Part shown: piece after piece, positions 15,246 through 32,274 of the stretch
How positions within the stretch are numbered: the stretch's first letter is position 1
How the letters are laid out: each line of letters begins with the position of its first letter
Assembly (NCBI RefSeq): GCF_006352025.1
Contig: NZ_CP040936.1
Location: 1,736,001-1,800,000 of the forward strand
DNA: 64,000 bases
Reading direction: 5' to 3'
DNA from: Hymenobacter sp. DG01
GTDB taxonomy: Bacteria; Bacteroidota; Bacteroidia; Cytophagales; Hymenobacteraceae
Notes under the pieces: model-generated
Databases searched by the model: none
What the model was told of the DNA's origin: nothing
What the model saw: the letters and a program-made list of their open reading frames with translations, nothing else
Position numbers and translations under genes: made by a program

Positions 15246-15278
15246 TTTGGAAGTATAAAATTCTGGCCGCTACTTTTG
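15246..15278 (+). promoter_or_regulatory. Promoter of the sulfate assimilation operon
   Basis: TTTG at 15246-15249 and TACTTTTG at 15271-15278, separated by 21 bp, match the Bacteroidota -33/-7 promoter. The same layout precedes the second SAM riboswitch. Confidence 0.75.
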
Positions 15279-15306
15279 CCCCATCAATTCTTTACCTGAA
15301 AGGATT

Positions 15307-15400
15307 GTTTTTATACAGAGGCGTGGAGAGACAGGCTCGACGAAGCGCCGGCAACCAGCGGACCATCCGAAACGGTGCCAAGTCCTGACCATATAAAAAC
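15307..15400 (+). ncRNA. SAM-I (S-box) riboswitch, copy 1
   Basis: The aptamer has the S-box conserved core: GGAGAGACAGGCTCGACGAA, then CCGGCAACCAGCGG, then AACGGTGCCAAGTCCTGACC. P1 is formed by GTTTTTATA (15307-15315) and TATAAAAAC (15392-15400). It senses S-adenosylmethionine and lies upstream of sulfate assimilation genes, so SAM is expected to repress them. The 3' strand of P1 lies 8 nt before the GTG of a Cys-rich small ORF. Confidence 0.9.
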
Positions 15401-15408
15401 AACGTACC

Positions 15409-15510
15409 GTGAACCGCTTGTCTAACTCCGCCGCCACATCCGCCACCACCATTGCTCTACAGCATGGGTGTTGTGCTATGATGGGCATGGCGTGTTGTTG
15501 TCAGGCGTAA
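15409..15510 (+). CDS. Cys/Met-rich leader peptide of the sulfur operon
   Basis: A 33-codon ORF with GTG start. Cys are at residues 21, 22, 29, 30 and 31 and Met at 24, 25 and 27, all in the last third (HGCCAMMGMACCCQA). It follows the riboswitch by 8 nt and precedes cysH by 201 nt. Such a peptide would let translating ribosomes sense charged Cys (and Met) tRNA, as in amino-acid attenuation. The second S-box in this window has a GTG ORF at the identical distance that also ends in a Cys-Cys-Cys run, which argues against chance. The downstream mechanism is not resolved. Confidence 0.7.
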   Translation: MNRLSNSAATSATTIALQHGCCAMMGMACCCQA

Positions 15511-15711
15511 CGCACCCTTCTTTTTTTCCTGGTTTGTGCGCCTGGCAGCTCTGCTGACACAGTTTTTTGTGTAGCTGACTCTGCCCGCACACCCGGCTTT
15601 TCGCCCTTGCCGCTGCTGGCTGCGCCTCCTTGTTTGGCTGCCACCGCGGGGTAGGGCCATCCTGTCAGCTGAAGTTTGCGCCTGTGGGCCGGCTTCCCTC
15701 CCCTTCTTGTT
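15511..15711 (+). promoter_or_regulatory. Leader segment between Cys-rich ORF and cysH
   Basis: This 201-nt stretch has no other ORF worth calling. It holds a T7 run after CGCACCCTTC (closed by CGCAC/GTGCG at 15511 and 15536) and a hairpin (ACACA/TGTGT, 15557-15572). These could form the attenuator switch, but the pairing was judged by eye only. Confidence 0.4.
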
Positions 15712-16488
15712 ATGTCAGCAGCAACTGCTGCGCCGGCCGTCCGCGCCTTGCTCGACGACCTGCGCCCCCGGCTGATCCAGGCTACGGCCCTGGAGCGGCT
15801 GCGCCTCGTGGCTGAACGCTTCCCCGAACAGGCCGTTTTTTCGACCTCTTTCGGCCTGGAAGACCAGATTATCAGCCATTTAATCTTCAGCCACCAGCTT
15901 CCCATTCAGGTTTTCACCCTCGATACGGGCCGGAATTTCCAGGAAACCTACGCCACCTGGAACAAGACCCTGCTGAAGTACGAGCAGCCCATTGCGGTGT
16001 ACTACCCCCAGCGGGAAAGCGTAGAGCAGCTGATGCTAGCCAAAGGCCCTAACTCCTTCTACGAGAGTGTGGAGAACCGCAAGGAGTGCTGCCATATCCG
16101 CAAAGTGAAGCCCCTGAACCGCGCCCTGGCCGGCAAAGCCGCCTGGGTTACGGGCATCCGCGCCGAGCAGTCGCAGAACCGCCAAACCATGGACCCCGTG
16201 GAGTGGGACGCGGCTCATAACCTGGTTAAAATCCATCCGCTGTTCGACTGGACCTGGGACCAGGCCGTGGCCTTCACCCAGGAAAACGGAGTGCCGGTGA
16301 ACACCCTGCATCAGCAGGGCTTCGTGAGCATCGGGTGTGCCCCCTGCACCCGCGCCATTCGGCCGGGCGAGGACTTCCGGGCCGGCCGCTGGTGGTGGGA
16401 AGACCTTTCGGCCAAGGAGTGCGGCCTGCACGCCACCGCCCATCACAACGGCCCCGACCCGGTGGTGGAGCCCGTTCCGGCAGGCTAG
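15712..16488 (+). CDS. cysH: Adenylylsulfate (APS) reductase
   Basis: Reduces activated sulfate to sulfite using thioredoxin. 258 aa from ATG 15712. The PAPS-reductase fold has STSFGLEDQ (44-52), and the protein carries the paired cysteines C126-C127 and C209-x2-C212 that bind a [4Fe-4S] cluster in APS-type enzymes, plus the catalytic C237 in KECGLH. Enterobacterial PAPS reductases lack the cluster cysteines, so APS is the likely substrate; this fits the absence of an APS kinase (cysC) in the operon. First structural gene after the SAM riboswitch and Cys-rich leader. Confidence 0.92.
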   Translation: MSAATAAPAVRALLDDLRPRLIQATALERLRLVAERFPEQAVFSTSFGLEDQIISHLIFSHQLPIQVFTLDTGRNFQETYATWNKTLLKYEQPIAVYYPQRESVEQLMLAKGPNSFYESVENRKECCHIRKVKPLNRALAGKAAWVTGIRAEQSQNRQTMDPVEWDAAHNLVKIHPLFDWTWDQAVAFTQENGVPVNTLHQQGFVSIGCAPCTRAIRPGEDFRAGRWWWEDLSAKECGLHATAHHNGPDPVVEPVPAG

Positions 16489-16569: not shown

Positions 16570-17481
16570 ATGAGTACCCCTTCTTTCGATTATCTCGACC
16601 GGCTGGAAGCCGAAGCCATCCACATCCTGCGGGAAGTGGCCGGCCAGTTTGAGCGCCCAGCCCTACTCTTCTCGGGCGGCAAAGACTCCATCGTGCTGAC
16701 CCGCCTCGCGGAAAAGGCCTTCCGGCCCGGCCGCTTCCCGTTTCCCCTGGTGCACGTCGATACCGGCCACAACTTCTCCGAGGTACTGGCCTACCGCGAC
16801 CAGCTAGCTGAAAACCTGGGCGAAAAGCTGATCGTGCGCCAAGTGGAAGATACCATCAAGCGGCAGCGCCTGCGCGAGCCGGGCGGCAAGTTTCCCAGCC
16901 GCAATCCCCTGCAAACCTATACGCTGCTGGAGGTCATTGAGGAGTTTGAGTTCGATGCCTGCATCGGCGGGGCTCGCCGCGACGAGGAAAAGGCCCGGGC
17001 TAAGGAGCGCATTTTCTCCGTCCGCGACGAGTTTGGGCAGTGGGACCCTAAGCGCCAGCGCCCCGAGCTCTGGAACATCTACAACGGCCGCATCCAGAAG
17101 GGCGAAAACGTGCGCGTGTTCCCCATTTCCAACTGGACGGAGCTGGACGTGTGGCGCTATATCCAGCGCGAGAACATTGCCCTGCCCGACATCTACTTCG
17201 GTCATGAGCGCCGTTGCGTGGTGCTACCTACCGGCCAGCTACTAGGCCTTTCGGAGCACTTGCGCCTGGATAAGGACGATGAAATCGTGACCCGGCAGGT
17301 GCGCTTCCGCACCGTCGGCGACTCTACATGCACGGCCGCCGTGGAAAGCGACGCCGCCACCGTGGAAGACATCATCCAGGACCTGCTGCTGGCCAAAGTA
17401 AGCGAGCGGGGCGCTACCCGCCTCGACGACAACATCTCGGAAGCCGGCATGGAAGACCGCAAACGCAACGGGTATTTCTAG
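16570..17481 (+). CDS. cysD: Sulfate adenylyltransferase small subunit
   Basis: Catalytic subunit of ATP sulfurylase, which forms APS from sulfate and ATP with CysN. PP-loop motif LLFSGGKDSIV (near residue 33), GGARRDEEKARAKERIFS, and the C-terminal RYRT-type segment QVRFRTVGDSTCTAAV. 303 aa matches the E. coli protein. It follows cysH by 81 bp and precedes cysN. Confidence 0.95.
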   Translation: MSTPSFDYLDRLEAEAIHILREVAGQFERPALLFSGGKDSIVLTRLAEKAFRPGRFPFPLVHVDTGHNFSEVLAYRDQLAENLGEKLIVRQVEDTIKRQRLREPGGKFPSRNPLQTYTLLEVIEEFEFDACIGGARRDEEKARAKERIFSVRDEFGQWDPKRQRPELWNIYNGRIQKGENVRVFPISNWTELDVWRYIQRENIALPDIYFGHERRCVVLPTGQLLGLSEHLRLDKDDEIVTRQVRFRTVGDSTCTAAVESDAATVEDIIQDLLLAKVSERGATRLDDNISEAGMEDRKRNGYF

Positions 17482-17484
17482 TGG

Positions 17485-17597
17485 GGTGATGAGGTGATGA
17501 AGTAATGAGGTGAAAAGAATGGTCCTGCAATGGCTTCCTCCCTCTACTCCATCATCCCACAACACATTTCACCTCATCACCTTTCACCTCATCACCA
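17485..17597. repeat. Inverted word repeat between cysD and cysN
   Basis: Arms: 17485-17516 (GGTGATGAGGTGATGAAGTA...) and 17567-17597 (TTTCACCTCATCACC, repeated twice). They belong to the same word family as 1550-1577. They lie within the operon and could form a long RNA hairpin before the cysN start. Confidence 0.65.
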
Positions 17598-17599
17598 AC

Positions 17600-18886
17600 A
17601 TGGACTTACTTCGATTTATCACCTGCGGCAGCGTCGATGACGGCAAAAGCACCCTGATTGGGCGGCTACTCTACGACTCCGAATCGGTGTCGCTGGACGT
17701 GCTGGCGGCCCTGGAAAAGCGGCAGGCCTCTAATGGCACCGTGGATTTGGCTTTGCTGACGGATGGCTTGCGGGCTGAGCGCGAGCAGGGCATCACCATT
17801 GATGTCGCCTACAAGTATTTCACTACCCCCCGCCGCAAGTTCATCATTACCGATGCGCCGGGCCACGTGCAGTACACCCGTAACATGGTAACCGGCGCCA
17901 GCAACGCCGACCTGGCCATTGTGTTGGTAGATGCGCGCCAGGGCGTGATTGAGCAAACCCGCCGCCATACGCTCATTGCCGCCCTGCTGGGCATCCGGCA
18001 CTTTGTGCTGGCCGTGAACAAGATGGATCTGGTAGGCTACGACGAAGCCGTGTTCGCCAAGATTGCCACCGACTACGCCGAGCTGACCAACCACTTCAAC
18101 CTGCCCGCAGCCACGGCTATTCCGCTCAGCGCCCTCAACGGCGACAACGTGGTGAAGAAGTCGGTGCTCCTACCCTGGTACACTGGCCCGAGCCTGCTGG
18201 AGCACCTGGAAAGCGTGCCCGGCGCTTCGGAAACGGCCGCGCCGGGTCGCTTCCAGGTCCAGTACGTCATCCGGCCCCAAACCGCCGAGCTGCCCGATTA
18301 CCGTGGCTACGCCGGCCAGATCCAGAGCGGCCAGTACCGCCGCGGCGACCGGGTAACGGTGCTACCCTCCGGCCTGCAGTCGGAAATCGAAGCCATTGAA
18401 GTAAACCAGCAGGAAGTTGATGCGGCCTCCGCGCCCCAGGCCGTGGTGTTGCGCCTGCGCGACGACGTGGACGTGAGCCGCGGCGACTCCATTGTGCCGC
18501 TGGCCGAGGCCCCTACCCTCACCCGCGAGCTGGAAGCTACCCTTTGCTGGATGAGCGAGCAGCCCCTGTGGCCCGGCCGTAAGCTGCTGGTGCAGCATCA
18601 TTCCGCGCTGGTGAAAGCGGCCATTCCGGCCATCCTCTATAAGGTGAACGTGCACACCTTCGCCCGCGCCGCCGCCGATTCGGCCCAGCTCAACGACATC
18701 GTGCGGGTGCGCCTGAAAACGGCCCTCCCCCTGGCCGTGGACACCTACCTGGAAAACCGCGCCTCCGGTTCCTTTATCCTCGTCGATGAGCTGACCGGCG
18801 ACACCGTGGCGGCCGGCCTCGTGGAAGCCGCCGACTCCGAGTACTTCACCCTGCCCGTCGGTCCGCCGGTGGCCTATTCTATTTAG
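17600..18886 (+). CDS. cysN: Sulfate adenylyltransferase large subunit (GTPase)
   Basis: GTPase subunit that drives APS synthesis by CysD. P-loop GSVDDGKST (residues 9-17), DAPGHVQYTRNM G3 region, NKMD G4 motif, then EF-Tu-like beta-barrel domains 2 and 3. The 428-aa length means it is CysN alone, without the APS kinase (CysC) domain found in NodQ-type fusions. ATG 17600 is chosen because the upstream frame reads through the repeat and is not protein-like. Confidence 0.95.
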   Translation: MDLLRFITCGSVDDGKSTLIGRLLYDSESVSLDVLAALEKRQASNGTVDLALLTDGLRAEREQGITIDVAYKYFTTPRRKFIITDAPGHVQYTRNMVTGASNADLAIVLVDARQGVIEQTRRHTLIAALLGIRHFVLAVNKMDLVGYDEAVFAKIATDYAELTNHFNLPAATAIPLSALNGDNVVKKSVLLPWYTGPSLLEHLESVPGASETAAPGRFQVQYVIRPQTAELPDYRGYAGQIQSGQYRRGDRVTVLPSGLQSEIEAIEVNQQEVDAASAPQAVVLRLRDDVDVSRGDSIVPLAEAPTLTRELEATLCWMSEQPLWPGRKLLVQHHSALVKAAIPAILYKVNVHTFARAAADSAQLNDIVRVRLKTALPLAVDTYLENRASGSFILVDELTGDTVAAGLVEAADSEYFTLPVGPPVAYSI

Positions 18887-19000
18887 AAATCTGAGTCTGG
18901 GGGCACACGGGTACCTGCTCATCAAATAGAACGTCATGTCTAGACTAGCTCGACATGACCGGCAGTTTTCCCAGCTCTCACCTCACTTCTCCCTACCCCC

Positions 19001-19804
19001 ATGTCCACAACCAAACTACCACGCCTGACGGTACTCGGGGCCGGGCCCGGCGACCCGGAGCTGCTCACGCTCAAAGGGGCTCGGGTGCTGGCCGAAGCCG
19101 ACGTGATTCTCTACGATGCCCTGACCAACCACGCCCTGCTCCAGCACGCACGCCCTGCGGCTGTAAGCGTGCCCGTGGGCAAGCGCCGCGGTATGCGCAG
19201 CCACTCGCAGGACGAAATCAACGCCCTGATTGTGGAGTACGCCCACCGCTACGGCCACGTGGTGCGCCTGAAAGGTGGCGACCCATTTGTGTTCGGGCGG
19301 GGCCGAGAGGAAATGCTCTTCGCCGAAGCCCACGGCCTAGCCACCGACTACGTGCCGGGCATTAGCAGCGCGGTAGCGGCGGCGGGCAGCGCGGGTATTC
19401 CGGTTACGCACCGCGGCCTGAGCGAAGGATTTCGAGTGATTACGGCCACTACGGCTACCGGCGAGTTGTCGGGCAGTGTGGCCGAGGCCGCTCAGTCGCG
19501 CGCTACTACTGTGATACTCATGGGCCTGGGCGAGCTGGAAAATATCGTGGCTGTGTTCAGCCGTTGCGGGCAGACTGACACCCCGGCAGCCATCGTGCAG
19601 AACGGCACCCTACCCCAGGCGCGGGTGGTAACCGGTACGGTAGCCGAGCTGCCCGCCCGCGCCGCCGCGGCCGGTATCGGGACGCCGGCCATCATCATTA
19701 TTGGCGAGGTAGTTCGCCTGGCTACTCCGGCCAGTCTGGCGACTACGCTCCCGCCGGCGGCTTTCGCCGTGTTAACGCCACCCTCCTACGCAGAGGTGGC
19801 CTGA
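19001..19804 (+). CDS. cobA: Uroporphyrinogen-III C-methyltransferase
   Basis: SAM-dependent methylase making precorrin-2, the precursor of siroheme needed by sulfite reductase. Signature VLGAGPGDPELLTLKGARVL (near 10-29), GGDPFVFGRGREE and PGISSAVAAAGSAGIPVTHRG are diagnostic for the SUMT family. 267 aa. It stands alone here instead of fused to the CysG oxidase/chelatase; that domain lies later in the operon, fused to a transporter. Confidence 0.95.
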   Translation: MSTTKLPRLTVLGAGPGDPELLTLKGARVLAEADVILYDALTNHALLQHARPAAVSVPVGKRRGMRSHSQDEINALIVEYAHRYGHVVRLKGGDPFVFGRGREEMLFAEAHGLATDYVPGISSAVAAAGSAGIPVTHRGLSEGFRVITATTATGELSGSVAEAAQSRATTVILMGLGELENIVAVFSRCGQTDTPAAIVQNGTLPQARVVTGTVAELPARAAAAGIGTPAIIIIGEVVRLATPASLATTLPPAAFAVLTPPSYAEVA

Positions 19805-19848
19805 TTTATTTCTGCTCCGCTTTTCCACAGCCAATATCACTACCGCTC

Positions 19849-21705
19849 ATGTCTTCCCCCACTCTTCCCATCGGCCTTGATGAAGCCACGCTGCAGCAGC
19901 TGACGGCCGGCCTCACCGACCGCCAACTGCTTTGGCTGAGTGGCTACCTCTACGGTCGGGCTGGCTCGGACGCTGCTCCGGAAGCCGCTATTCCGGCAGC
20001 GGCAACCGCCCCGATTGCCACGTCCGTAGCTCCCAGCCTCACCATTCTGTACGGCTCTCAAACCGGCAATAGCAAGAAGGCAGCGGGTATTGCGGCTGAA
20101 GCCGCCCGGCAGCGCGGCCTGGTAGCCACCGTGCGCGACATGAACGACTACCCCACCAAGGACCTCAAAACCGAGCAGCAGCTATTGGTGGTGGTGAGCA
20201 CCCAGGGCGAGGGCGACCCACCTATTGCGGCCGAGGAGCTGCACCAGTTCTTACTGAGCAACCGCGCCCCCAAGCTGCCCGACCTACGTTTCGCAGTGCT
20301 GGCTCTGGGTGATAAAAGCTACCTGCAGTTCTGCCAGACGGGTTTTGAGTTCGACCAGCGCCTGGCCGAGTTGGGTGCCAAACGCCTGCTGGAGCGCGTG
20401 GACTGCGACGTGGAGTTCGAAGCCGAAGCTCGCCGCTGGGCCGGGCAAGTGCTGGGGCTGATTGCCGCTGCTACTTTGCCTGCAGTAACTCCTGCGCCGG
20501 TAGCCGCCAGCGTGGTGTCAGCCCAGGTTAAGCCGGTGGCGCTGACAGCTCTTGTGGGTGGCGCGGAAGTGGAGTTGGAGGAACGGGTGGAATACAGCAG
20601 CCGTAACCCCTTTGAGGCTGAGCTGCTGGAGAAAATTCAGCTCAACGGCCGTGGCTCTACCAAGGAAACCTACCATTTAGAGTTTTCCCTGGCCGACTCG
20701 GGCATCCAATACGAAGCTGGCGACGCCCTGATGGTGCAGCCCCGCAACCGCCCCGGTTTAGTGCAGGAAGTGCTGGACGCTGCCCGCCTGGCCGCCGCGG
20801 ACCCCGTGCGCCTCGAAGCCGAGGAACTAGACCTGAGCACGGCCCTGACCGAGCGGCTGGAGCTGTCCGTCGTCACCCGCGACGTGCTGGAGCGCTACGC
20901 CGCCGTAGCCCCGCACCACCCCAAGCTGCGCGAAATTCTAGCCGACAAAGCTCAACTTCCTACCTACCTCTATGGCCGCGACGTAGCCGATTTGCTTCAG
21001 GAGTTTCCGGTGGAACTGTCGGGGCAGCAGTTGGCGGCGGTGCTGCGGCCTTTGCCGGCCCGGGCTTATTCTATTGCCTCTTCCCTGTTGGCTCACCCCG
21101 AGGAAGTACACCTGACTGTGGGGGCAGTGCGCTACCAAGCCAACGGCCGCGCCAAGCACGGTGCCTGCTCCAGCTTCCAGGCTGACCACCTACACATCGG
21201 CGACGCGGCCCGGGTGTGGGTGGACCGCAACGAGTACTTCAAGCTCCCCCAGGACCCGAGCACCGACATCATCATGGTAGGCGCGGGCACCGGCGTGGCA
21301 CCCTTCCGGGCCTTCGTGGAGGAGCGGGCCGAAACCGGCGCTACCGGCCAGAACTGGCTGGTGTTCGGCAACCCCCACTTCACCACCGACTTCCTCTACC
21401 AAACCGAGTGGCTGCAACACCTCAAGCGCGGCACCCTCCACCAGCTCGACGTGGCCTTCTCCCGCGACCAGGAAGAGAAAATATACATCCAGCACCGCCT
21501 GCTCCAGCAAAGCCGCCGCCTCTACGCCCAGCTTGAAAACGGGGCCCACTTCTACGTCTGCGGCGACAAAAACCGCATGGCCGCCGACGTACAGCGCGCC
21601 CTGCTCACCGTCATTGCTCAGGAAAGCGGCCAGGGCGATGCCTACGCCGCCGACTACCTCAAGCAGCTCCGCAAATCGCGCCGCTACCTCGAGGACGTGT
21701 ACTGA
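19849..21705 (+). CDS. cysJ: Sulfite reductase flavoprotein (CysJ-like)
   Basis: NADPH-dependent diflavin reductase that feeds electrons to CysI. Flavodoxin domain with ILYGSQTGNSKKAA (near residue 65), then the FAD-binding domain with RAYSIASS and the NADPH site VGAGTGVAPFRAF, ending in the aromatic EDVY. The N-terminus (GLTDRQLLWLSGYLYG) also matches CysJ. 618 aa. An Ala/Pro-rich linker (about residues 205-235) joins the flavodoxin and FAD parts. Confidence 0.93.
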   Translation: MSSPTLPIGLDEATLQQLTAGLTDRQLLWLSGYLYGRAGSDAAPEAAIPAAATAPIATSVAPSLTILYGSQTGNSKKAAGIAAEAARQRGLVATVRDMNDYPTKDLKTEQQLLVVVSTQGEGDPPIAAEELHQFLLSNRAPKLPDLRFAVLALGDKSYLQFCQTGFEFDQRLAELGAKRLLERVDCDVEFEAEARRWAGQVLGLIAAATLPAVTPAPVAASVVSAQVKPVALTALVGGAEVELEERVEYSSRNPFEAELLEKIQLNGRGSTKETYHLEFSLADSGIQYEAGDALMVQPRNRPGLVQEVLDAARLAAADPVRLEAEELDLSTALTERLELSVVTRDVLERYAAVAPHHPKLREILADKAQLPTYLYGRDVADLLQEFPVELSGQQLAAVLRPLPARAYSIASSLLAHPEEVHLTVGAVRYQANGRAKHGACSSFQADHLHIGDAARVWVDRNEYFKLPQDPSTDIIMVGAGTGVAPFRAFVEERAETGATGQNWLVFGNPHFTTDFLYQTEWLQHLKRGTLHQLDVAFSRDQEEKIYIQHRLLQQSRRLYAQLENGAHFYVCGDKNRMAADVQRALLTVIAQESGQGDAYAADYLKQLRKSRRYLEDVY

Positions 21706-21734
21706 CCTGTCCAACTCGCACTGAATGCTAGAGC

Positions 21735-21960
21735 TAAAGCCTAGCTCCCCTCCTCAGCTGAGGAGGGGTTGGGGGTGGTTGATCAGCGCGTCTGAACATC
21801 CTAGTAGCTCTAGACACCGCCCTACCCCCTAACGTTTTCTCCAAGGAAAGGGATACTAGTTCTAGACACTGCCCTACCCCATCAACCACCCTCAACTCCT
21901 TCCCATCTGAGGAGGGGAGCTTAACTCTAACTTTTCCTACCTCTCCTCCCAATCTGATGA
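21735..21960. repeat. REP-like palindromes after cysJ
   Basis: Two copies of an inverted element. One at about 21741-21785 has the palindrome CCCCTCCTCAGCTGAGGAGG followed by GGTTGGGGGTGGTTGA; the inverse, partial copy is at 21886-21928. Between them GTAGCTCTAGACACCGCCCT and TAGTTCTAGACACTGCCCTA form a near-direct repeat. The rest of the 420-bp spacer to 22125 shows no gene. Confidence 0.75.
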
Positions 21961-22125
21961 TGTTCCTTCTGCCAAGACGATGTTGTAGCTGGTAACTGCT
22001 GCCGCGCGGCCTGACGCGGGTGCCCCCGTTTTTGTGCCTTTTGCGGCCTTTACCTGAGTAGGCTCTTTCCAAGCGCAGACCTGCTCCCTACCCCTCCTTC
22101 TTTCCAGAACCTCATCTGATTTGTC

Positions 22126-25053
22126 ATGAAGCATTCCTACGCTTCTCTTCTGCTGCCGGCTGTATTGCTGGCTAGCACTACTTCCCTGCACGCCCAAGAA
22201 GCGTTAATTTCCGTGAGCGGTACCGTTCGGGAGAAAGGCACCCAGGAGCCATTACCGGGCGTGAGTATTAGCGTGAAAGGCGGCTCGGCGGGCACGCTCA
22301 GCGACGGTAACGGGCAGTTCGCCCTCAAGGCTAAGCTGCGCTTTCCGTTTACGCTGGTATTTAACATTCTCGGCTACGAGGCCCGGGAGCTGGAAATTGC
22401 CAGTGGCAGCCAGCCCATTGCCATGCAGCTGGAATCGAAGGCGGTGGCGATGAACGAGGTGGTGGTGTCGGCCTCGCGGGTGGAGGAGAGCCGGCTGAAG
22501 TCGCCGGTGGCCATTGAGAAGCTGGACATCCGGGCCATCAAGGAAACGCCCGCGCCCAGCTTCTACGACGCCCTGGAAAACGTGAAGGGTGTGCAGATGA
22601 CTACCTCCTCGCTTACCTTCAAAGTACCCAATACCCGCGGCTTCAACATCCCGAACAACTTCCGCTTTATGCAGCTGGTGGATGGCGTGGACATGCAGGC
22701 CGCTACCCTTGGCGTCCCGCTGGGCAACGCCATTGGGCCCACCGAGCTGGATATTGCCAGCGTGGAGATTACGCCCGGAGCGGCCTCGGCCCTCTACGGC
22801 ATGAATGCCATCAACGGCATGGCCAACCTCACCACCAAGAGCCCCTTCAGCTACCAGGGCTTGAGCGTGTATCAGAAGGTAGGCGTGAACCACGTCGATG
22901 GGAAGGACCGGGACCCAAGTGTGCTCACCGAAACAGCCGTGCGCTGGGCGCAGGCGTTGGGCAGCTCGCAGCGCTGGGCCTACAAAGTAAACCTGAGCTA
23001 CCTGCGCGGCACCGACTGGCTGGCCAACACCCAAACGGACCAGAACCCGCAGAACCTAAGCTCGGCTAACCCACGCTTTCCAGAGTTGAGCGGGGCCGAC
23101 AACCCGGCCGCCGACCTCTGGAACCGCTACGGCGACGACAACGCCGGCAACGTGTCCATCCCGATTACCTACAAGGGCCGCACCGAAACCTTTAACATCC
23201 GGCGCACCGGTTACTACGAACGGGACCTCACCAACCCCATCGTGCGCAACATCAAGGCCGATGCCAGCCTGCACTACAAGCTCACGGATAAGCTGGAGCT
23301 GAGCTACGGCTACCGGTTTGGACTCATGGATGGCGTATTTCAGCGCGGCAACAAGATTCAGCTGGATGGCGTGACGGTGCAGAACCACAAGCTGGAGCTG
23401 CGCGGCCAGAACTTCACGGCCCGCGGCTATATGCTGGCAGAAAACACCGGCAACTCCTACAACCTCAACCCCTTGGCCCTGAACCTGGACCTGCAAAACG
23501 GCGCTACCGCCCTTTCGCCGGCCAGTGCCACCGTGCGCAACAGCTGGGGCGACAAGTTTCAGCAAAGCCTGCAAGCCCAGGTAAACCAGGGCGTGGACCT
23601 GGCCACAGCCATGCAGCAGGCCCGCGCCGCCGCCGATGCCGGCCGCGCCGTACCCGGCACTCAGGCTTTCGACGCCCTCAAAAACCAGATTGTGTACACC
23701 AACAACTGGGACAGCGGCGTGAACGTGAAGGGTGCCCCCATTCCGGGCGGGGCCGCGCTTACCCAGCGCAGCCGCACCTACCACGCCGACGTGCTCTGGA
23801 ACCTGGGCGAGCGGGTGAAGTTTGCCGACGTGGTGGTGGGGGCCGATACTCGCCTCTACGAGGTACTACCCGACGGCAACAACTTCGTGGATTTCGGCCG
23901 GCCGCTCGACCAGCGCACCCAGCCTGGTGGCAACAACCAGTACTACAAGAAAATCGGAGGCTTCGGGCAGGCCACCAAGCTGCTGCTCCAGGACCGCCTG
24001 AAGCTTACCGCCTCCCTCCGACTCGACTACAACCCTGAGTTTGACCCCAAGCTGAACCCGCGGGTAGCGGCCGTGTACACCCTGGCGGCCCGGCACAACT
24101 TTCGCGCATCCTACCAGAACGGCTGGCGCTTCCCGTCCCTGTTCGAGGCCCTGTCCTTCGTGAACAACGGCAACGTGCGCCGGGTAGGTGGCCTAGCCCG
24201 CGTGAACGAAGGCCTGAATTACCTCGACAACTCCTACACGCTGGCTTCCATTTCTACCTTCAACGCAGCCGTGAATGCCTACGTGTCGGCTAACGGTGGT
24301 ACCGCGGCCCAGGCAGCGGTGCGGCCGGAAATTCGGGGGTTGCTGCAAGTCGGCAACCTGCCCACCGAGCAGCCGGAGCAAATTAACGCCTACGAGGTAG
24401 GCTACCGCAGCGTGCTGCTGGATAACCGCTTGTCCGTTGATGCCGATGCCTACTACAACATTTACTCCGGCTTCCTGGGCCAGGTGGAAGTAAGCGTACC
24501 CAAGAACGCCAGCGGCCAGCAGGTACCGGTAGGCTCTGATGATGCCGTGCTGGCCGCGCTCAACAGCAACCGCTCGGCCCGCCAGGACCGCTACCGCGTG
24601 TACACCAACGCCCGCAACAACTACCACAGCTATGGCTCTACGCTGGGCCTGACTTACAACTTCTATCAGAAGTTCACGGTAGGCGGCAACGTCAACTACA
24701 ACGCCCTATCCGACAACAAGGAGGCCGACATCTTCGTGACCGGGTTCAACACCCCGCATTGGGTAACCAACGTGAACTTCGGCAACCGCGAAATCGTGCG
24801 CAACGTGGGCTTCAACGTGGTATGGCGCCACCAGAGCACGTTCTACTGGGAAAGCCCCCTGGCCAATGGCCGCGTGCCTGCCTACCAAACCGTGGATGCC
24901 CAAGTGAACGTGCGCGTGCCCAGCCTGAAGTCGACTATCAAAGTGGGCGGCGCCAACCTCTTCAACAACCGCTACTTCCAGTACGCCGCTGGCCCCACTA
25001 TCGGGGGGCTGTACTACGTGGCGTTGACCTTCGACAACACGGTGCTCCGCTAA
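22126..25053 (+). CDS. TonB-dependent outer membrane receptor
   Basis: 975-aa outer membrane receptor. Signal peptide (residues 1 to about 23, cleavage near LHAQ), carboxypeptidase-like regulatory domain (about 28-105, SGTVREKGTQEPLPGVSISV), plug domain (ALENVKGVQMTT, then LVDGVDMQA and ITPGAASALYGMNAINGM), then a beta-barrel rich in aromatic/Asn strands. It imports a substrate using the TonB complex. No SusD partner is present. It is in the SAM-controlled sulfur operon, so a sulfur-containing ligand is a reasonable guess, but nothing in the sequence proves it. Both sides are bordered by the same palindromic repeats. Confidence 0.93.
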   Translation: MKHSYASLLLPAVLLASTTSLHAQEALISVSGTVREKGTQEPLPGVSISVKGGSAGTLSDGNGQFALKAKLRFPFTLVFNILGYEARELEIASGSQPIAMQLESKAVAMNEVVVSASRVEESRLKSPVAIEKLDIRAIKETPAPSFYDALENVKGVQMTTSSLTFKVPNTRGFNIPNNFRFMQLVDGVDMQAATLGVPLGNAIGPTELDIASVEITPGAASALYGMNAINGMANLTTKSPFSYQGLSVYQKVGVNHVDGKDRDPSVLTETAVRWAQALGSSQRWAYKVNLSYLRGTDWLANTQTDQNPQNLSSANPRFPELSGADNPAADLWNRYGDDNAGNVSIPITYKGRTETFNIRRTGYYERDLTNPIVRNIKADASLHYKLTDKLELSYGYRFGLMDGVFQRGNKIQLDGVTVQNHKLELRGQNFTARGYMLAENTGNSYNLNPLALNLDLQNGATALSPASATVRNSWGDKFQQSLQAQVNQGVDLATAMQQARAAADAGRAVPGTQAFDALKNQIVYTNNWDSGVNVKGAPIPGGAALTQRSRTYHADVLWNLGERVKFADVVVGADTRLYEVLPDGNNFVDFGRPLDQRTQPGGNNQYYKKIGGFGQATKLLLQDRLKLTASLRLDYNPEFDPKLNPRVAAVYTLAARHNFRASYQNGWRFPSLFEALSFVNNGNVRRVGGLARVNEGLNYLDNSYTLASISTFNAAVNAYVSANGGTAAQAAVRPEIRGLLQVGNLPTEQPEQINAYEVGYRSVLLDNRLSVDADAYYNIYSGFLGQVEVSVPKNASGQQVPVGSDDAVLAALNSNRSARQDRYRVYTNARNNYHSYGSTLGLTYNFYQKFTVGGNVNYNALSDNKEADIFVTGFNTPHWVTNVNFGNREIVRNVGFNVVWRHQSTFYWESPLANGRVPAYQTVDAQVNVRVPSLKSTIKVGGANLFNNRYFQYAAGPTIGGLYYVALTFDNTVLR

Positions 25054-25067
25054 AATTAAAGCTAGAA

Positions 25068-25197
25068 AGCTAGCTCCCCTCCTCAGATGAGGAGGGGCTG
25101 GGGGTGGTTGACCGGAGTGTTGAACGAATACTAGCTCTAGTTTCTAATTCTAACCTTTCAACCTACCCCAACCCCTCCTCAGATGAGGAGGGGGAGC
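25068..25197. repeat. REP-like palindrome pair after the receptor gene
   Basis: Two inverted copies of the element seen at 21741: 25074-25107 (CCCCTCCTCAGATGAGGAGG followed by GGCTGGGGGTGGTTGA) and 25161-25197 in the opposite orientation, making a long stem across the 168-bp spacer. Confidence 0.8.
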
Positions 25198-25221
25198 TAG
25201 TGCCAAAAACGCTTCTTTGTT

Positions 25222-25995
25222 ATGAAACGGCTGCTTTCCTCCCTTGGCTTCCTACTGCTCCTGAGCCAGCATGCAACGGCCCAGAAGCAGTACGTGCGCG
25301 AGCAGCAAACCTGGCTGGGCGTGTTCAACCAAACCCGCTTCTCGAACCGCTGGGGCACCTGGACCGATCTGCACCTGCGCCTCCACGACCACTACGTGCA
25401 GGACCTGTTCCAGACCGTGGCGCGGGTAGGCCTGACCTACTACCTCACCGACGACGTGCGCCTGACCGGGGGCTATGCCTACGTACATCACTTCCCCGAC
25501 GGTGCCCGCACCATCGGGCAGCCGGAGCACCGGCCCTGGCAGCAGGTGCAGTGGTTTACCAAGTTCCCGAAGGCCCGCCTCATGCAGTGGGTGCGGCTGG
25601 AAGAGCGGTTCCGGCGCACCATCCAAAGCAACGAGCGCACCGACGAGTTCAACTTCAACTACCGCACCCGCTACAACGCGGCGCTGTTTCTGCCCCTGAC
25701 CAAAAAAGGCTTTGCCCCCGGCGGTGTGCAGTTTCTGCTCAACAACGAGGTGATGATGAATTTCGGCAAGGAGATTCGCCTCAACTACTTCGACCAGAAC
25801 CGACTGTTTGCTGGCCTGGTGTATCAGCTCAACCCGCACGCTCAGCTGCACGGGGGCTACATGCACCTGTTTCAGCAGTTGCCGACGGGTAGCACCTACC
25901 GCAATCAGCACACCATCCGGGTGTTTTACTTCCACAATTTCGATCTGAGGCCGACCCCGCCGCCGGTTCCGCCTACCCCCACTACTGCCCCCTAA
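25222..25995 (+). CDS. DUF2490 outer membrane protein
   Basis: 257 aa with signal peptide (residues 1 to about 20, ATAQ). The body is rich in alternating aromatic/polar strands ending in an aromatic residue (IRVFYFHNFDL), as in beta-barrel outer membrane proteins, and matches DUF2490 (WLGVFNQTRFSNRWGTWTD at the start). A Pro/Thr-rich tail of about 18 residues follows the last strand. Function unknown. It ends 4 bp before the cysI start, so it is clearly part of the operon. Confidence 0.82.
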   Translation: MKRLLSSLGFLLLLSQHATAQKQYVREQQTWLGVFNQTRFSNRWGTWTDLHLRLHDHYVQDLFQTVARVGLTYYLTDDVRLTGGYAYVHHFPDGARTIGQPEHRPWQQVQWFTKFPKARLMQWVRLEERFRRTIQSNERTDEFNFNYRTRYNAALFLPLTKKGFAPGGVQFLLNNEVMMNFGKEIRLNYFDQNRLFAGLVYQLNPHAQLHGGYMHLFQQLPTGSTYRNQHTIRVFYFHNFDLRPTPPPVPPTPTTAP

Positions 25996-25999
25996 CCTC

Positions 26000-27706
26000 A
26001 TGGCTGATATTCAAAAGCTGTCCGAAGTCGAGCACGTCAAGCAGGCCAGCAACTACCTGCGTGGCACCCTGGCCGAGAGCCTCGTTAACCCCATCACCGG
26101 CGCCCTCTACCCCGACGATACCCACCTGATCAAATTCCACGGCTCCTACCAGCAAACGGACCGCGACTTGGACTCGGAGCGGAAGCGCCAGAAGCTAGAG
26201 CCGCTCTACTCCCTCATGATTCGGGTGCGGGTACCGGGCGGCGTGGCTAACCCTCAGCAGTGGTTGCGCATGGACGAGCTAGCTGACCAGTACGGCAACG
26301 GCACGCTCAAGCTCACCACTCGCCAGGCTTTCCAGCTGCACGGCGTGCTCAAGCGCAACCTCAAAAAAACCATTCAGGGCTTCAATGATGCCCTGCTGGA
26401 CAGCATTGCGGGCTGCGGCGACGTGAACCGCAACGTGATGTTCAACCCCAATCCGCACCAGAGCCGCGTGCACGAAGAAGTGTACGAGGTGTCCCGGCAG
26501 ATCAGCGCCCACCTCACTCCGCGCACCTCGGCTTACTGGGAGCTGTGGCTAGACGGGGAATCGAAGTACAGCAGCGTACCGAACGAGGGCGAGGAAGATG
26601 CCGAGCCGATTTACGGCAAAACCTACCTGCCCCGCAAGTTCAAGATTGCCCTGGCCGTGCCACCCCACAACGACACCGATATCTTCGCCAACGACCTGGG
26701 CCTCATTGCCATTGAGGAAAACAGCCGCCTGCTGGGCTTCAACGTGGCCGTGGGCGGTGGCATGGGCATGACGTTTGGCATGCCCGAAACCTACCCCCGC
26801 CTGGCCAGTCTCATTGGGTTTGTGCCCACTGAGGAGGTAGTAAACCTATGCGAAAAGGTAGTCACGATTCAGCGCGACTGGGGCAACCGCGAAAACCGCA
26901 AGTTCAGCCGCCTCAAATACACTATCGACCGGGTAGGTCTGGATGTGTTCAAGGCCGAGCTGGACAACCGCCTGGGCTTTGCCCTGGAGCACGGGCGGGC
27001 TTATGAGTTCAAGAGTTCCGGCGACGCTTTCGGGTGGAGCCAGGGCCCCGATGGTGCCCACCACCTGACCTTGTTTGTGGAGGGCGGCCGCGTGGCCGAC
27101 CGGCCTGGCAGCCAACTCAAAACCGCCCTGCGCGAAATTGCAGCTTTCCATACCGGCGACTTCCGCCTGACCGGCAACCAAAACCTGATTATAGCTAATG
27201 TAGCGCCCGAAGACCGCCTCACCATCGAGACGATTCTGGCCCAGCATGGGGTAGCTGTAGAAACCACTTCGGGGCTGCGGCGGGGGGCTTTGGCCTGCGT
27301 GGCCCTGAATACTTGCTCCCTGGCTTTTGCCGAAGCTGAACGCTACATTCCACAACTTATTGATAGATTGGAGCCTGCGCTGGCGGCTCATAACCTCACC
27401 CACGACGACATCCTGATCCGGATGACGGGCTGCCCCAACGGCTGCGCCCGGCCCTACCTGGGAGAAATCGGGCTGGTTGGGCGGGCGGTGGGCCGCTACA
27501 ATCTGTACCTCGGCGCCGCTTTCAACGGGGAGCGGATGAACAAGCTCTACAAAGAAATGTTGGACGAAGACGGCATCGTGGCGGAGCTTACGCCCCTTTT
27601 CGCCGACTACGCCCAAAACCGCCAGCCCCAGGAGCGCTTCGGCGACTTCGTGATTCGCCAGGGCTACGTTCAAGCCACCACCGAAGGCCTGAATTTCCAC
27701 GTGTAA
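26000..27706 (+). CDS. cysI: Sulfite reductase hemoprotein subunit
   Basis: Reduces sulfite to sulfide with six electrons, using a coupled siroheme and [4Fe-4S] cluster. Cluster ligands are C433, C439, C478 and C482 (CVALNTC and GCPNGC), nearly the numbering of E. coli CysI. Substrate-site Arg/Lys region TRQAFQLHGV is present. 568 aa, close to the usual 570, and the pairing with a CysJ-like flavoprotein favours sulfite over nitrite reductase. Confidence 0.95.
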   Translation: MADIQKLSEVEHVKQASNYLRGTLAESLVNPITGALYPDDTHLIKFHGSYQQTDRDLDSERKRQKLEPLYSLMIRVRVPGGVANPQQWLRMDELADQYGNGTLKLTTRQAFQLHGVLKRNLKKTIQGFNDALLDSIAGCGDVNRNVMFNPNPHQSRVHEEVYEVSRQISAHLTPRTSAYWELWLDGESKYSSVPNEGEEDAEPIYGKTYLPRKFKIALAVPPHNDTDIFANDLGLIAIEENSRLLGFNVAVGGGMGMTFGMPETYPRLASLIGFVPTEEVVNLCEKVVTIQRDWGNRENRKFSRLKYTIDRVGLDVFKAELDNRLGFALEHGRAYEFKSSGDAFGWSQGPDGAHHLTLFVEGGRVADRPGSQLKTALREIAAFHTGDFRLTGNQNLIIANVAPEDRLTIETILAQHGVAVETTSGLRRGALACVALNTCSLAFAEAERYIPQLIDRLEPALAAHNLTHDDILIRMTGCPNGCARPYLGEIGLVGRAVGRYNLYLGAAFNGERMNKLYKEMLDEDGIVAELTPLFADYAQNRQPQERFGDFVIRQGYVQATTEGLNFHV

Positions 27707-27726
27707 TACGGTTAGTTTAGGGAAAC

Positions 27727-27778
27727 GTCATGCAGTGCCGTCGAAGCATCTCGCCCGTGCCTCTGCATAACGTTCTAC
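27727..27778. repeat. Dispersed repeat between cysI and the next gene
   Basis: AACGTCATGCAG at the left and CTGCATAACGTT at the right form inverted ends around GTCGAAGCATCTCGCCCGTG. Related to the repeats at 1614 and 52280. It explains why the frame is open upstream of 27817. Confidence 0.55.
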
Positions 27779-27816
27779 TCCTATCCGCCCCCTACCCTTC
27801 CAACCAACACCAACCC

Positions 27817-29325
27817 ATGCCTCTTTCTTCCAACGAACTTCTTCAGCCGGAACCGCCGCCGCAGCCCAATAGCAACCGGCTGTTTCCTGTGTTTCTGAAG
27901 CTGGAGCAGCTGCACGTGCTGCTGGTAGGCGGGGGCTACGTGGGCCACGAGAAGCTCGCGGCCCTGCTGGCCAACAGCCCGGCTGCGGCCGTAACGGTGG
28001 TAGCCACCTGGTTTTCGGCGGAGCTGAAAGCCCTGGCCGCCCGCCATCCGAGCGTGCAGCTGCGCGAGCAGCCCTACCAAACCACCGACCTCGTGGGCCA
28101 CGACCTGGTAATTGTGGCTACCAACGACAAAGCCCTGAACCTGCGCATCAAGGCCGATGCCACGCGCCAGCGCCTGCTCTGCAACGTGGCCGATACGCCC
28201 GAAGCCTGCGACTTTTACCTGGGCTCCATTGTGCAGAAAGGCGACCTAAAAATTGCCATCAGCACCAACGGCAAGTCGCCGACCATTGCCAAGCGCCTGC
28301 GCGAAATGCTCACCCAGGCCCTGCCCGATGAGCTGCACGACGTGCTGCAGCGCATGTCTGTCATCCGGGACAAAGTCGGCGGCGACTTTGCTCACAAGGT
28401 GAAGTCGTTGAACGCCGTGACGGCTGAGCTGACCGGCGGCCCGGCCTACGAGTCGCCGGCGGCGGCGCGGTGGCGTCGCATTGCCACGGCCTCTCTGCTT
28501 GCCTTTGCGGTCATGCTCGTGTTCAACATTCTCTCCTACTACTTTACTCTGGAGCAAGTGTGGAGCGCGGCTACCCACGCCGAAATGTTCTGGCTGTTTG
28601 TGGCCATCGGCTTTGGCGCGCAGCTGATTGATGGGCTCTTGGGCATGGGCTACGGGGTAGTAACGGCTATCAGCCTGATGAGCCTGAACATTGCTCCGGC
28701 CGCCGTGAGTGCCAGCATCCATACCGCCGAAATGTTTGCCAGCGGGGCCTCGGGCTACCACCACTACCGCTTCGGCAACGTGAACAAGCGCCTGTTCAAG
28801 GTGCTCCTGATTCCGGGGGTGCTGGGCGCGGTTACCGGGGCCTACCTGCTCTCAAAATTCGGCGAAACCTACGCCGGCTACGTCAAGCCCCTGCTGGCCG
28901 CCTACCTGCTGCTGCTCGGTATTCGCATCATTTCCAAGGCCTTTTCCAAACCCGGCTCGCGCAAAAAGCACAAGAAGCTGGGGCTGCTGGCCGCGGCCGG
29001 CGGCTTCCTCGATTCGTTTGGCGGGGGTGGCTGGGGGCCGCTGGTAACCAGCACCCTCATTGCCGGGGGCCGCACGCCGCAGTACGTTATCGGCTCGGTG
29101 AGCGTCACGGAGTTTTTTGTCACGTTTGCCAGCGCCGTTACGTTTTTTGCCACCCTGGGCATCTCGCACTGGCAGATTATTCTGGGCCTGATTGTGGGCG
29201 GCGTGGCCGCTTCGCCCATTGCCGCCCGCCTGGCTGGCCGCATTCCGGTGCGCTGGATGCTGGTAGGCGTGGGCCTGATGGTAATCGTCTGGAGTTTATG
29301 GGCCTTGCGGAAGGTGTTTATGTAG
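27817..29325 (+). CDS. Siroheme synthase N-domain fused to TauE/SafE (TSUP) transporter
   Basis: A 502-aa two-domain protein. Residues about 21-210 match the CysG N-terminal/Met8-like domain (precorrin-2 dehydrogenase and probable ferrochelatase): FPVFLKLEQLHVLLVGGGYV with the NAD-binding glycines 38-40, IVATNDKALN and a C-terminal dimerisation segment. Residues about 222-500 have around eight membrane segments of the TauE/SafE family (FGAQLIDGLLGMGYGVV, repeated later as LDSFGGGGWGPLV). The first half completes siroheme synthesis after CobA; the second may move sulfite or sulfate. Start ATG 27817 follows a repeat. Last gene before a strong terminator. Confidence 0.88.
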   Translation: MPLSSNELLQPEPPPQPNSNRLFPVFLKLEQLHVLLVGGGYVGHEKLAALLANSPAAAVTVVATWFSAELKALAARHPSVQLREQPYQTTDLVGHDLVIVATNDKALNLRIKADATRQRLLCNVADTPEACDFYLGSIVQKGDLKIAISTNGKSPTIAKRLREMLTQALPDELHDVLQRMSVIRDKVGGDFAHKVKSLNAVTAELTGGPAYESPAAARWRRIATASLLAFAVMLVFNILSYYFTLEQVWSAATHAEMFWLFVAIGFGAQLIDGLLGMGYGVVTAISLMSLNIAPAAVSASIHTAEMFASGASGYHHYRFGNVNKRLFKVLLIPGVLGAVTGAYLLSKFGETYAGYVKPLLAAYLLLLGIRIISKAFSKPGSRKKHKKLGLLAAAGGFLDSFGGGGWGPLVTSTLIAGGRTPQYVIGSVSVTEFFVTFASAVTFFATLGISHWQIILGLIVGGVAASPIAARLAGRIPVRWMLVGVGLMVIVWSLWALRKVFM

Positions 29326-30365: not shown

Positions 30366-31823
30366 TTACGCTACCGGCTGCCGGGCTTGCTCCTGCCCCA
30401 GCTTGCTATGCTTGCGGCCGTAGCCGAAGTAAATAGCCAGCCCGATAGCCAGCCACACGGCCAGGCGCAGCCAGGTTTCCCAGGGCAAGGACACCATCAT
30501 CACCAGGCAGGTCAGGATGCCCAGGATGGGCACCAGCGGCACCAGGGGCGTGCGGAAGCCACGCGGGGCGTTAGGCTCTTTCTTGCGCATGATGAGCACA
30601 CCCAGGCACACCATAACGAAGGCCAGCAGGGTGCCGATGCTCGTCATTTCGCCTACCACTGCAATGGGAACGAACCCGGCGAAGAGGGCAATAAACAGGC
30701 CCAGCAGCAGCCCCGACTGCAGGGGCGTCCCGAACCGCTCGTGCACGCGGGCAAATACGGGTGGGAGCAGCCCGTCCTTGGCCATGGCAAAGAACACGCG
30801 GGTCTGACCCAGCAAATCCACCAGAATCACGGAGGTGTAGCCGATGATGATAGCCAGAATTACGGCCGAAGACAGCCAGGCGTAGGGCGTTTTCTCGATG
30901 GCAATGGCCACCGGGGCAGCACTGTTCTTGAACTCGGTGTAGTTGGCCAGGCCCGTGAGTACGTGGCCGAACAGCACGAACAGCACCGTGCACACCAGCA
31001 GGGAGCCGATGATACCGATGGGCATGTTGCGCTGGGGGTTCTTGGTTTCCTGGGCCATAGTAGCCACAATATCAAAGCCAATGAACACGAAGAATACTAC
31101 CCCCGCCCCGCGCAAAATACCGCTCCAGCCAAACTCCCCGAACACGCCCGTATTGGTTGGGATGTAGGGTTGGTAGTTGGCGGGGTCGATGTACTGCCAG
31201 CCCAGGGCAATAAACACCAGCACCACCGACACCTTCAGGCTCACGACCAGGGCATTAAACCAGGCTGAGCTTTTGGTGCCGCGTACCACAATGAGCGTGA
31301 TGCCCAGCACAATGAGCATGGCCGGGATGTTGACCAGCCCGCGCACCACGCTGCCATCGGCCAGGGTGGCCGTTTCAAACGGCGACATAACCAATTGGGG
31401 CGGAATGTGCAGGTTGTACTTGCTCAGAAACTTCACCAGGTACTGCGACCAGCTGATGGACACGGCCGCCGCACCCACCGAATACTCCAGAATCAGGTCC
31501 CAGCCGATAATCCAGGCGAACAGCTCCCCCATGGTGGCGTAGGCGTAGGTGTAGGCCGAGCCGGCCACGGGCACCATGGCGGCAAACTCGGCGTAGCACA
31601 GAGCCGAGAAGGCGCAGCCCACGGCTGCCACCACAAACGAGAGCGTAACGGCCGGGCCGGCATTGTTGGCGGCGGCCAGACCCGTAAGCGAAAACAGGCC
31701 CGCCCCGATAATCACCCCAATGCCGATGGCAATCAGGTTGAAGCCATTCAGGGTTCGTTTCAGGGTGCCAGCCCCAGTGGCCGCGGCTTCCTGCCGCAGC
31801 AGTTCCAATGATTTTTTAAGCAT
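30366..31823 (-). CDS. APC-family amino acid permease under SAM riboswitch control
   Basis: 485-aa inner membrane transporter with about 12-14 segments, of the cationic amino acid transporter-like branch of the APC superfamily: FNLIAIGIGVIIGAGLFSLTG (near 30) is the substrate-binding first helix, and GRKHSKL lies near the C-terminus. ATG 31823 starts just before the cytoplasmic helix LKKSLELLRQ. The upstream leader holds a SAM-I riboswitch and a Cys-rich small ORF, so the likely cargo is methionine, cysteine or a related sulfur amino acid; this is inferred from regulation, not from residues in the protein. Confidence 0.9.
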   Translation of the reverse strand: MLKKSLELLRQEAAATGAGTLKRTLNGFNLIAIGIGVIIGAGLFSLTGLAAANNAGPAVTLSFVVAAVGCAFSALCYAEFAAMVPVAGSAYTYAYATMGELFAWIIGWDLILEYSVGAAAVSISWSQYLVKFLSKYNLHIPPQLVMSPFETATLADGSVVRGLVNIPAMLIVLGITLIVVRGTKSSAWFNALVVSLKVSVVLVFIALGWQYIDPANYQPYIPTNTGVFGEFGWSGILRGAGVVFFVFIGFDIVATMAQETKNPQRNMPIGIIGSLLVCTVLFVLFGHVLTGLANYTEFKNSAAPVAIAIEKTPYAWLSSAVILAIIIGYTSVILVDLLGQTRVFFAMAKDGLLPPVFARVHERFGTPLQSGLLLGLFIALFAGFVPIAVVGEMTSIGTLLAFVMVCLGVLIMRKKEPNAPRGFRTPLVPLVPILGILTCLVMMVSLPWETWLRLAVWLAIGLAIYFGYGRKHSKLGQEQARQPVA

Positions 31824-31877
31824 AAAAACAGGTGCCACCGCTGGGGTGGCTGGTAAGAAAAAAACCCGGCCATTGTA

Positions 31878-32179: not shown

Positions 32180-32274
32180 GTTTTTATATGGTCAGGAATT
32201 GGCACCGTTCCAGCAGTTGCGGATGGTTGCCGACGCTTCTTAGAGCCTGTCTCTCAGCGCCTCTGTATAAAAAC
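32180..32274 (-). ncRNA. SAM-I (S-box) riboswitch, copy 2
   Basis: On the minus strand the aptamer reads GCTGAGAGACAGGCTCTAAG, then GTCGGCAACCATCC, then GAACGGTGCCAATTCCTGAC. P1 is formed by GTTTTTATA (32274-32266) and TATAAAAAC (32188-32180), identical to copy 1. The region just upstream (GCCCCATCAATTCTTT) is also shared with copy 1, which indicates common ancestry of the two leaders. Confidence 0.9.

Follow-up and report, generated by a model that had tools for sequence, protein, structure and literature searches.

The control of sulfur genes by S-box (SAM-I) riboswitches and the control of operons by amino-acid-rich leader peptides are known separately, as had been pointed out in a sequence-only reading of the locus described here, and both Cys attenuators and SAM-I control of initiation are indeed on record. 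SAM-I aptamers that contain a ribosome binding site (RBS) in the 3′ strand of the P1 helix have been described in the available part of the work of Barrick and Breaker (PMC2258182). In the accessible portion of their description, the leaders of mycobacterial cys operons have several Cys codons in succession close to their stop codon and no conserved terminator hairpin, and an involvement of Rho was suggested (PMC1262725). The uORFC-8-2 motif, which precedes cysS in Rhodobacterales, carries tandem Cys codons in a leader ORF, as far as the available text of the source goes (PMC8632094). For ppe2 of Mycobacterium tuberculosis, the available text describes a riboswitch that acts on the translation of an upstream ORF (uORF), which in turn controls the gene (PMC11260477). 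For Flavobacterium psychrophilum, there are hints of leader-peptide attenuation before amino-acid operons, which the accessible part of the source does not combine with an aptamer (PMC9723704). In the open-licence literature, outside of which most subscription papers lie, no report was found of a riboswitch that gates an amino-acid-polling leader, i.e. of the combination of SAM-I and Cys.

This combination is present upstream of cysH in Hymenobacter sp. DG01, in the region 15246-15711 of the stretch of 64,000 nt that was analyzed (the window). In agreement with the earlier reading, a promoter was found on the plus strand. It is of the Bacteroidetes type and consists of TTTG (15246-15249), a 21-nt spacer, and TACTTTTG (15271-15278); a sigma-70 promoter scan found nothing in this region (15246..15278). 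TACTTTTG fits the TAnnTTTG promoter type that is described for flavobacteria in the available part of the source (PMC9723704). A TAnnTTTG motif is located at most 75 nt upstream of the aptamer at 39 of the 45 leader loci with a GTG start and an AU-type P1. The promoter is followed by a hairpin formed by CAATTCTTT and AAAGGATTG (15284..15307, plus strand), located 5′ of P1, and this pattern was found at 41 of the 45 GTG-start AU-P1 leader loci. The final three bases of the hairpin are shared with the extended P1, so that it may compete with P1.

The aptamer itself (15308..15399, plus strand) matches the full RF00162 model with 71.9 bits (E 7.2e-15). As the gathering score is 44.4 bits, which both aptamers of the window exceed over the full length of the model, the S-box assignment holds. 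P1 is extended: its 5′ strand TTGTTTTTATA (15305..15315, plus strand) is the exact complement of its 3′ strand TATAAAAACAA (15392..15402, plus strand). The 3′ strand also forms the A-rich stretch ahead of the leader start and ends 6 nt before the start codon. The extension by TTG:CAA to 11 bp is found at 42 of the 45 Hymenobacter leader loci with a GTG start and an AU-type P1. The leader ORF (15409..15510, plus strand) begins 9 nt past the aptamer and comprises 33 codons, from the GTG start to a TAA stop. Five Cys codons (15469, 15472, 15493, 15496, and 15499, all TGT) and three ATG codons (15478, 15481, and 15487) fall into the last 13 residues, and the C-terminal end reads GCCAMMGMACCCQA; start, length, and residue counts had been given identically before.

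The distance of 201 nt between the stop of the leader and the ATG of cysH at position 15712 was likewise confirmed. This interval (15511..15711, plus strand) is rich in C and T (69 C, 53 G, 15 A, 64 T) and is a possible candidate for a Rho loading region. Terminator-like sites on the plus strand are missing from it; the two that a scan found both lie inside the leader ORF. By eye, the TGT run in the window appeared to be complementary to the start of cysH.

The first gene 3′ of the element is cysH (15712..16488, plus strand), which encodes a phosphoadenylyl-sulfate / adenylylsulfate reductase (PF01507; NF002537 with 259 bits at a cut-off of 154). Further sulfur genes with Pfam matches follow on the plus strand (16570..29325), and an ORF at 25222-25995 (plus strand) lies among them. 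From cysH on, the Pfam domains comprise two members of the PAPS reductase family, an EF-Tu-like GTPase, a tetrapyrrole methylase, and a flavodoxin/FAD/NAD reductase, and also a TonB receptor, a sulfite/nitrite reductase, and a sirohaem/TauE protein. Named from these domains, the genes in 16570..29325 are presumably cysD-like, cysN-like, and genes for a tetrapyrrole methylase, a CysJ-like flavoprotein, and a TonB receptor, as well as, again presumably, for a sulfite/nitrite reductase and a sirohaem synthase/TauE fusion.

A second copy of aptamer and leader, which was absent from the sequence-only reading, is located on the minus strand of the window (32273-32055). Its aptamer (32181..32273, minus strand; RF00162 73.7 bits) has an AU-type P1 like the first one. 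Its leader ORF (32055..32171, minus strand) has a GTG start, 38 codons, and the C-terminus GGCCCGRV, and the spacing between aptamer and start is the same as in the first copy. The downstream gene encodes an amino-acid permease (30366..31838, minus strand; PF13520, 185 bits). The genome of Hymenobacter sp. DG01 contains six SAM-I aptamers, five of which are followed by a Cys leader (L001, L002, L003, L005, and L006), and the sixth (L004) groups with metH loci. The window also contains a small SRP RNA of the Bacteroidales type (41683-41581, minus strand; RF04183, 72.8 bits).

For an overview across Bacteroidota, 209 SAM-I loci, which are part of all matches, were sorted using only the 14 bases at the 3′ end of the aptamer. 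A Cys leader was defined as one with three or more Cys, with a pair among them. The fractions of loci with a Cys leader are 61 of 78 for the TATAAA type, 1 of 71 for GATAAG/GATGAG, and 5 of 60 for other P1 sequences (Fisher P 9e-25 for TATAAA versus GATAAG/GATGAG). The arrangement that had been claimed for a single locus is thus widespread in the phylum. The five leaders in the last group all follow AU-rich strands (e.g. ATATAA and GATAAA), and the single leader of the GATAAG class (L018) is probably spurious. Under a broader definition of an AU-like P1, 66 of 90 loci have a Cys-rich ORF that starts 4-16 nt past the aptamer. Dinucleotide shuffles of these 90 loci yielded a mean of 3.3 (maximum 7), or of 5.5 (maximum 11) when the first 20 nt were kept. 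The remaining 119 aptamers have one leader, compared with 0.6 in shuffles (0.9 with the first 20 nt kept). The start position is nearly uniform, i.e. 9 or 10 nt past the aptamer at 56 of the 66 AU-like loci, within a range of 4-13 nt. At L082, L084, L090, L098, L134, and L143, an ATG 7-10 nt past an AU-type aptamer opens an ORF of 23-40 codons without a Cys run, and the AU-type aptamer of L201 is followed by a Met-rich leader (MRMRMPMS).

Additional loci were collected with a frame-blind pattern, which combined the core of the aptamer with TATAAA and required three Cys codons 86-116 nt downstream, using one genome per species. At least 120 loci were found. When the first ATG (or else GTG) located 5-20 nt past TATAAA was taken as the start, the Cys run was in frame, without an intervening stop, in 117 of the 120 matches listed, and 118 of these 120 qualify with the best start. 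Of the three misses, one (L244) is in frame with another start, one (L257) is without a start, and one (L284) contains a stop. The matches listed include Hymenobacter, Pontibacter, Adhaeribacter, Mucilaginibacter, Pedobacter, Chitinophagales, Saprospiraceae, Cyclobacteriaceae, Crocinitomicaceae, Flavobacteriales, and others, and one (L215) is labelled 'bacterium'. Three of the listed matches are assigned outside of Bacteroidota, i.e. the frame misses L257 (Planktophila) and L284 (Macrococcus), and L327 (a Kuenenia MAG). The leader of the latter is nearly identical to that of a Flavobacteriales MAG (L301), so that L327 is probably misnamed. The low complexity of the Cys run could suggest that it arises by chance from TGT/TGC-rich DNA 3′ of the aptamer. 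However, the contrast between 66 of 90 loci and the 3.3 of the shuffles, and the in-frame fraction of the listed matches, for which one third would be expected, make this explanation practically negligible.

The counts for the 209 loci exclude the loci chosen by the pattern. Both sets were then pooled to 185 leaders, which contain some loci of the same species and include L018; removal of redundant peptides reduced the pool to 178. The codon counts and the analyses of terminators and of post-stop structure were done on the non-redundant leaders, and the C/G ratios were taken from the first set. Because the pattern required three Cys codons, loci chosen in this way can be judged fairly by frame, Met, and position only. 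For the last 14 codons of the 178 leaders, the in-frame count of TGY is 955, compared with 149 and 62 in the other two frames, and that of ATG is 197, compared with 18 and 18. At least one Met is present within the last 14 codons of 123 of the 178 leaders. In 158 of the 178, no more than three residues separate the last Cys run from the stop, and in 92 the run extends right up to it. Met accounts for 12.8% of the non-Cys residues in the last 14 positions and for 1.1% in the body of the peptide. This enrichment could be due in part to base composition, because the bodies are G-poor and Trp also rises, but the 197 in-frame ATG codons versus 18 and 18 show that composition alone is insufficient. 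The same excess suggests that the three Met of the leader in the window are probably part of the design. Three leader peptides were compared with NCBIfam, and none matched a family at E values up to 1; annotation could therefore easily miss these ORFs.

The codon statistics also bear on the view that the aptamer is the sole regulator, and that the ORF is a translated spacer or encodes a functional, e.g. metal- or thiol-binding, peptide. Short ORFs without a Cys run after the same type of aptamer are compatible with this view. It counts against a two-sensor reading that 17 of the 78 TATAAA-type aptamers are without a three-Cys leader and that, at several of them, an ATG 7-12 nt downstream opens an ORF of 23-43 codons without a Cys run, showing that Cys is not obligatory after this aptamer type. 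In contrast, the in-frame excess of both TGY and ATG and the association with Cys/Met genes argue for a role of the codons. Furthermore, the bodies of the peptides vary between genera, as judged by eye, whereas Cys and Met codons are found again and again close to the stop and the Cys run stays beside it. This pattern is more in keeping with a leader that counts codons than with a functional peptide. Taken together, regulation by the aptamer alone appears improbable.

The conservation of the leader was addressed at the cysH loci of Hymenobacter. The sequence-only reading had named a broken ORF in relatives that keep the riboswitch as one counterargument. Of the loci read, 19 have a SAM-I aptamer before cysH, and the leader turned out to be intact in 18 of these. 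At the remaining locus (L066), the ORF is cut short by a stop after nine codons, and both the aptamer and the downstream TGT run persist. In the alignment, two Cys columns are invariant in 18 of 18 leaders, and at four more columns Cys is present in at least half of them. Selection on the leader as a whole proved to be only weak: the in-frame dN/dS of ten close cysH leaders is 0.58, and the two other frames give 0.96 and 0.79. A signal this weak is expected if the tail is the only part of the peptide that counts. From the short aptamers of the same genus (88-95 nt), 56 were picked and 48 were read, and 47 of these have a leader, the miss again being L066. The exact Hymenobacter form, i.e. the P1 3′ strand plus CAA, was found in 65 of 150 genomes of the family, but in only two of six genera.

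Initiation at the leader has to be viewed in the context of Bacteroidetes, in which Shine-Dalgarno sequences are absent. In the available part of a study on F. johnsoniae, structure and the upstream nucleotides modulate initiation, with an adenine at -3 as the main positive determinant and with -6, -12, and -13 also being named (PMC6847099). At the AU-type leader loci, the positions -14 to -10 relative to the start are 69-95% A, and these bases belong to the 3′ strand of P1. Position -3 is an A in only 34% of the leaders and a G in 57%. The leaders therefore match the -12/-13 part of the adenine preference of F. johnsoniae, and the -3 part less so. The predicted initiation site is located inside the 3′ strand of P1, which is the arrangement of SAM-I elements that act directly on translation. 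At one further locus (L196), an AU-type SAM-I aptamer adjoins the start codon of a metX-like gene, with no Cys leader in between. The A-rich 3′ strand of P1, the known SAM-I switches with an RBS in P1, and L196, taken together, suggest that SAM probably blocks the translation of the leader.

From these features we derive a model in which two sensors would act in series and would end in the control of transcription, and we assign it a probability of about 0.65. As judged from the anatomy of the element, the AU-only 3′ strand of P1 would hold the A-rich landing site for the ribosome. At high SAM, P1 would be stabilized, the site would be hidden, and the leader would stay untranslated, whereas at low SAM P1 would open and translation would begin. 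The conserved codons point to the second stage, in which the ribosome would reach the Cys run, often together with Met codons, at the very end of the ORF. A shortage of Cys-tRNA (and probably also of Met-tRNA) would make it stall and shield the RNA just past the stop; if the supply is good, it would finish and leave. The third stage is the least certain one. RNA that is bare, because the leader is untranslated or because the ribosome has been released, would allow a terminating activity, most likely Rho, to act before the first gene. The operon would be switched on only if both SAM and Cys are low. This refines the integration of SAM and Cys supply that was proposed earlier, in that the two sensors are probably arranged in series and SAM gates the leader. 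Clustered cognate codons in a predicted leader ORF and cognate genes downstream, i.e. two hallmarks of amino-acid attenuators, are both present.

The third stage was approached via the predicted intrinsic terminators. They are present at 31 of the 71 loci of the GATAAG class (shuffles 0-3). In the regions of the leaders, no excess was found, i.e. 2 of 108 for ATG-start leaders (shuffles 0-3) and 4 of 69 for GTG-start leaders (shuffles 1-3, or 0-6 further downstream). An intrinsic terminator after the leader was therefore rejected as a feature of the class, and the terminator plus antiterminator of classical trp/his-type attenuators was not found in it. The C/G ratio is 1.74 in the bodies of the leaders and 1.28 in the 40 nt past the stop; the latter value barely exceeds the 1.18 in the 40 nt past the GATAAG aptamers, which served as a control. 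The identification of Rho as the terminating activity therefore stays tentative, and we rate its chances as slightly below even.

The main rival of a transcriptional ending is that both sensors exist and that the ribosome on the leader alters an RNA structure that governs the translation of the first gene. A translational-control mechanism of this sort operates at mycobacterial Cys leaders. The rival would agree with the missing excess of intrinsic terminators and with the structure at and after the stop of ATG-start leaders, which is above that of shuffles (mean z -0.85 to -1.17, with -0.85 at 0-60). For the Hymenobacter leaders, the mean z past the stop is -0.33 at 0-60 and -0.81 at 20-80. 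At 16 Mucilaginibacter-type loci (L214, L216, L219, and others), two hairpins without a U tail lie within the first 80 nt past the stop of the leader. The first one is ACACGU/ACGUGU, and the second one is a stem of several pair types in which 0-5 rows per pair do not pair; the alignment contains 15 of 18 loci plus L189 (L256, L271, and L325 were left out). For ten Hymenobacter cysH loci, RNAalifold predicted post-stop pairs with many exceptions, and these pairs were set aside. Hairpins and structure past the stop count against a pure Rho model, because that model needs none. However, the structure sits near the stop of the leader, the mean z is around 0 at +60 to +120, and the next gene starts 68-326 nt past the stop (76 sulfhydrylase loci), so that we regard a translational ending as unlikely and prefer the serial model with a transcriptional one.

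The genes downstream of the 185 leaders comprise 82 members of a sulfhydrylase cluster, 29 cysH genes, 26 amino-acid permease genes, 17 genes for RimK-like ATP-grasp proteins, 7 for TonB receptors, 7 metX-like genes, 3 for sulfite reductases, 2 for the Na+/H+ antiporter family, and 12 singles. The 82 sulfhydrylases represent a single-linkage blastp cluster, with a FETLQ-type motif at 76 loci; one of them (L026) matches TIGR01326, O-acetylhomoserine aminocarboxypropyltransferase/cysteine synthase, with 635 bits at a cut-off of 495. Pfam assigns the products of the metX-like genes to the alpha/beta hydrolases, and the name metX-like is our assumption. The RimK-like ATP-grasp proteins at L001 and 16 other leader loci score above the Pfam cut-off and below the NCBIfam cut-offs. 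TonB-dependent receptors follow the element at L006, L025, L057, and L060, and the TonB receptors after the element are possibly importers of sulfur compounds. Among the 209 loci, the sulfhydrylase motif was found at 17 loci with a leader and at 40 without one, showing that a sulfhydrylase gene alone does not demand a leader. For comparison, simple motifs identified 22 metH, 12 MetB/MetC-type, 4 homoserine-dehydrogenase-like, and 11 sulfhydrylase genes in the GATAAG class. A double check of SAM and Cys makes sense for enzymes that feed both Cys and homocysteine.

Across Bacteroidota, the SAM-I riboswitches with a leader may form a class that acts not on a gene but on a second sensor based on translation, by determining if this sensor is read at all. 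It would allow a serial readout of SAM, Cys, and Met, and the sequence of P1 (AU-only or GATAAG) would pick the platform within a genome; we consider this generalization to be somewhat better supported than its opposite. If it is true, it would explain why genomes of this group contain two sorts of SAM-I elements, and it would mean that a riboswitch and a leader attenuator can be linked in series, with a single transcript computing a logical combination of cofactor and amino-acid supply. The collected loci represent natural variants with which this logic can be tested.

The closest described systems each share one part of the proposed arrangement. The mycobacterial Cys leaders are alike in having a short leader ORF with a Cys run before cys genes, in lacking a conserved terminator hairpin, and in the suggested role of Rho. 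They belong to Actinobacteria, and the available part of their description does not mention a riboswitch, whereas the element described here has a SAM-I aptamer and belongs to Bacteroidota. Canestrari et al. reportedly termed the mycobacterial Cys leaders leaderless ORFs in 2020. The uORFC-8-2 motif has a terminator-like 3′ end and precedes cysS, and no aptamer is described in the accessible text, whereas the element in the window precedes cysH and belongs to a class without an excess of terminators. The uORF of ppe2 responds to B12, overlaps the start of the gene, and acts via termination-reinitiation, and a codon run is not mentioned in the available part of the source; here, leader and gene do not overlap but are 201 nt apart in the window and 68-326 nt at the 76 sulfhydrylase loci. 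The proposed likeness to tnaC of E. coli lies in the shielding of the RNA from Rho by a ribosome that has reached the end of the leader. Stalling at tnaC is caused by the nascent peptide and tryptophan, not by an empty tRNA, and tnaC is not known to have an aptamer. The SAM-I switches with an RBS in P1, as far as their available description goes, share with the present element the closing of P1 on an initiation site, and they differ in the direct target, which is a gene there and would be a leader ORF here, in a group of bacteria that initiates without Shine-Dalgarno sequences and in which the helix of the aptamer itself appears to hold the A-rich initiation site.
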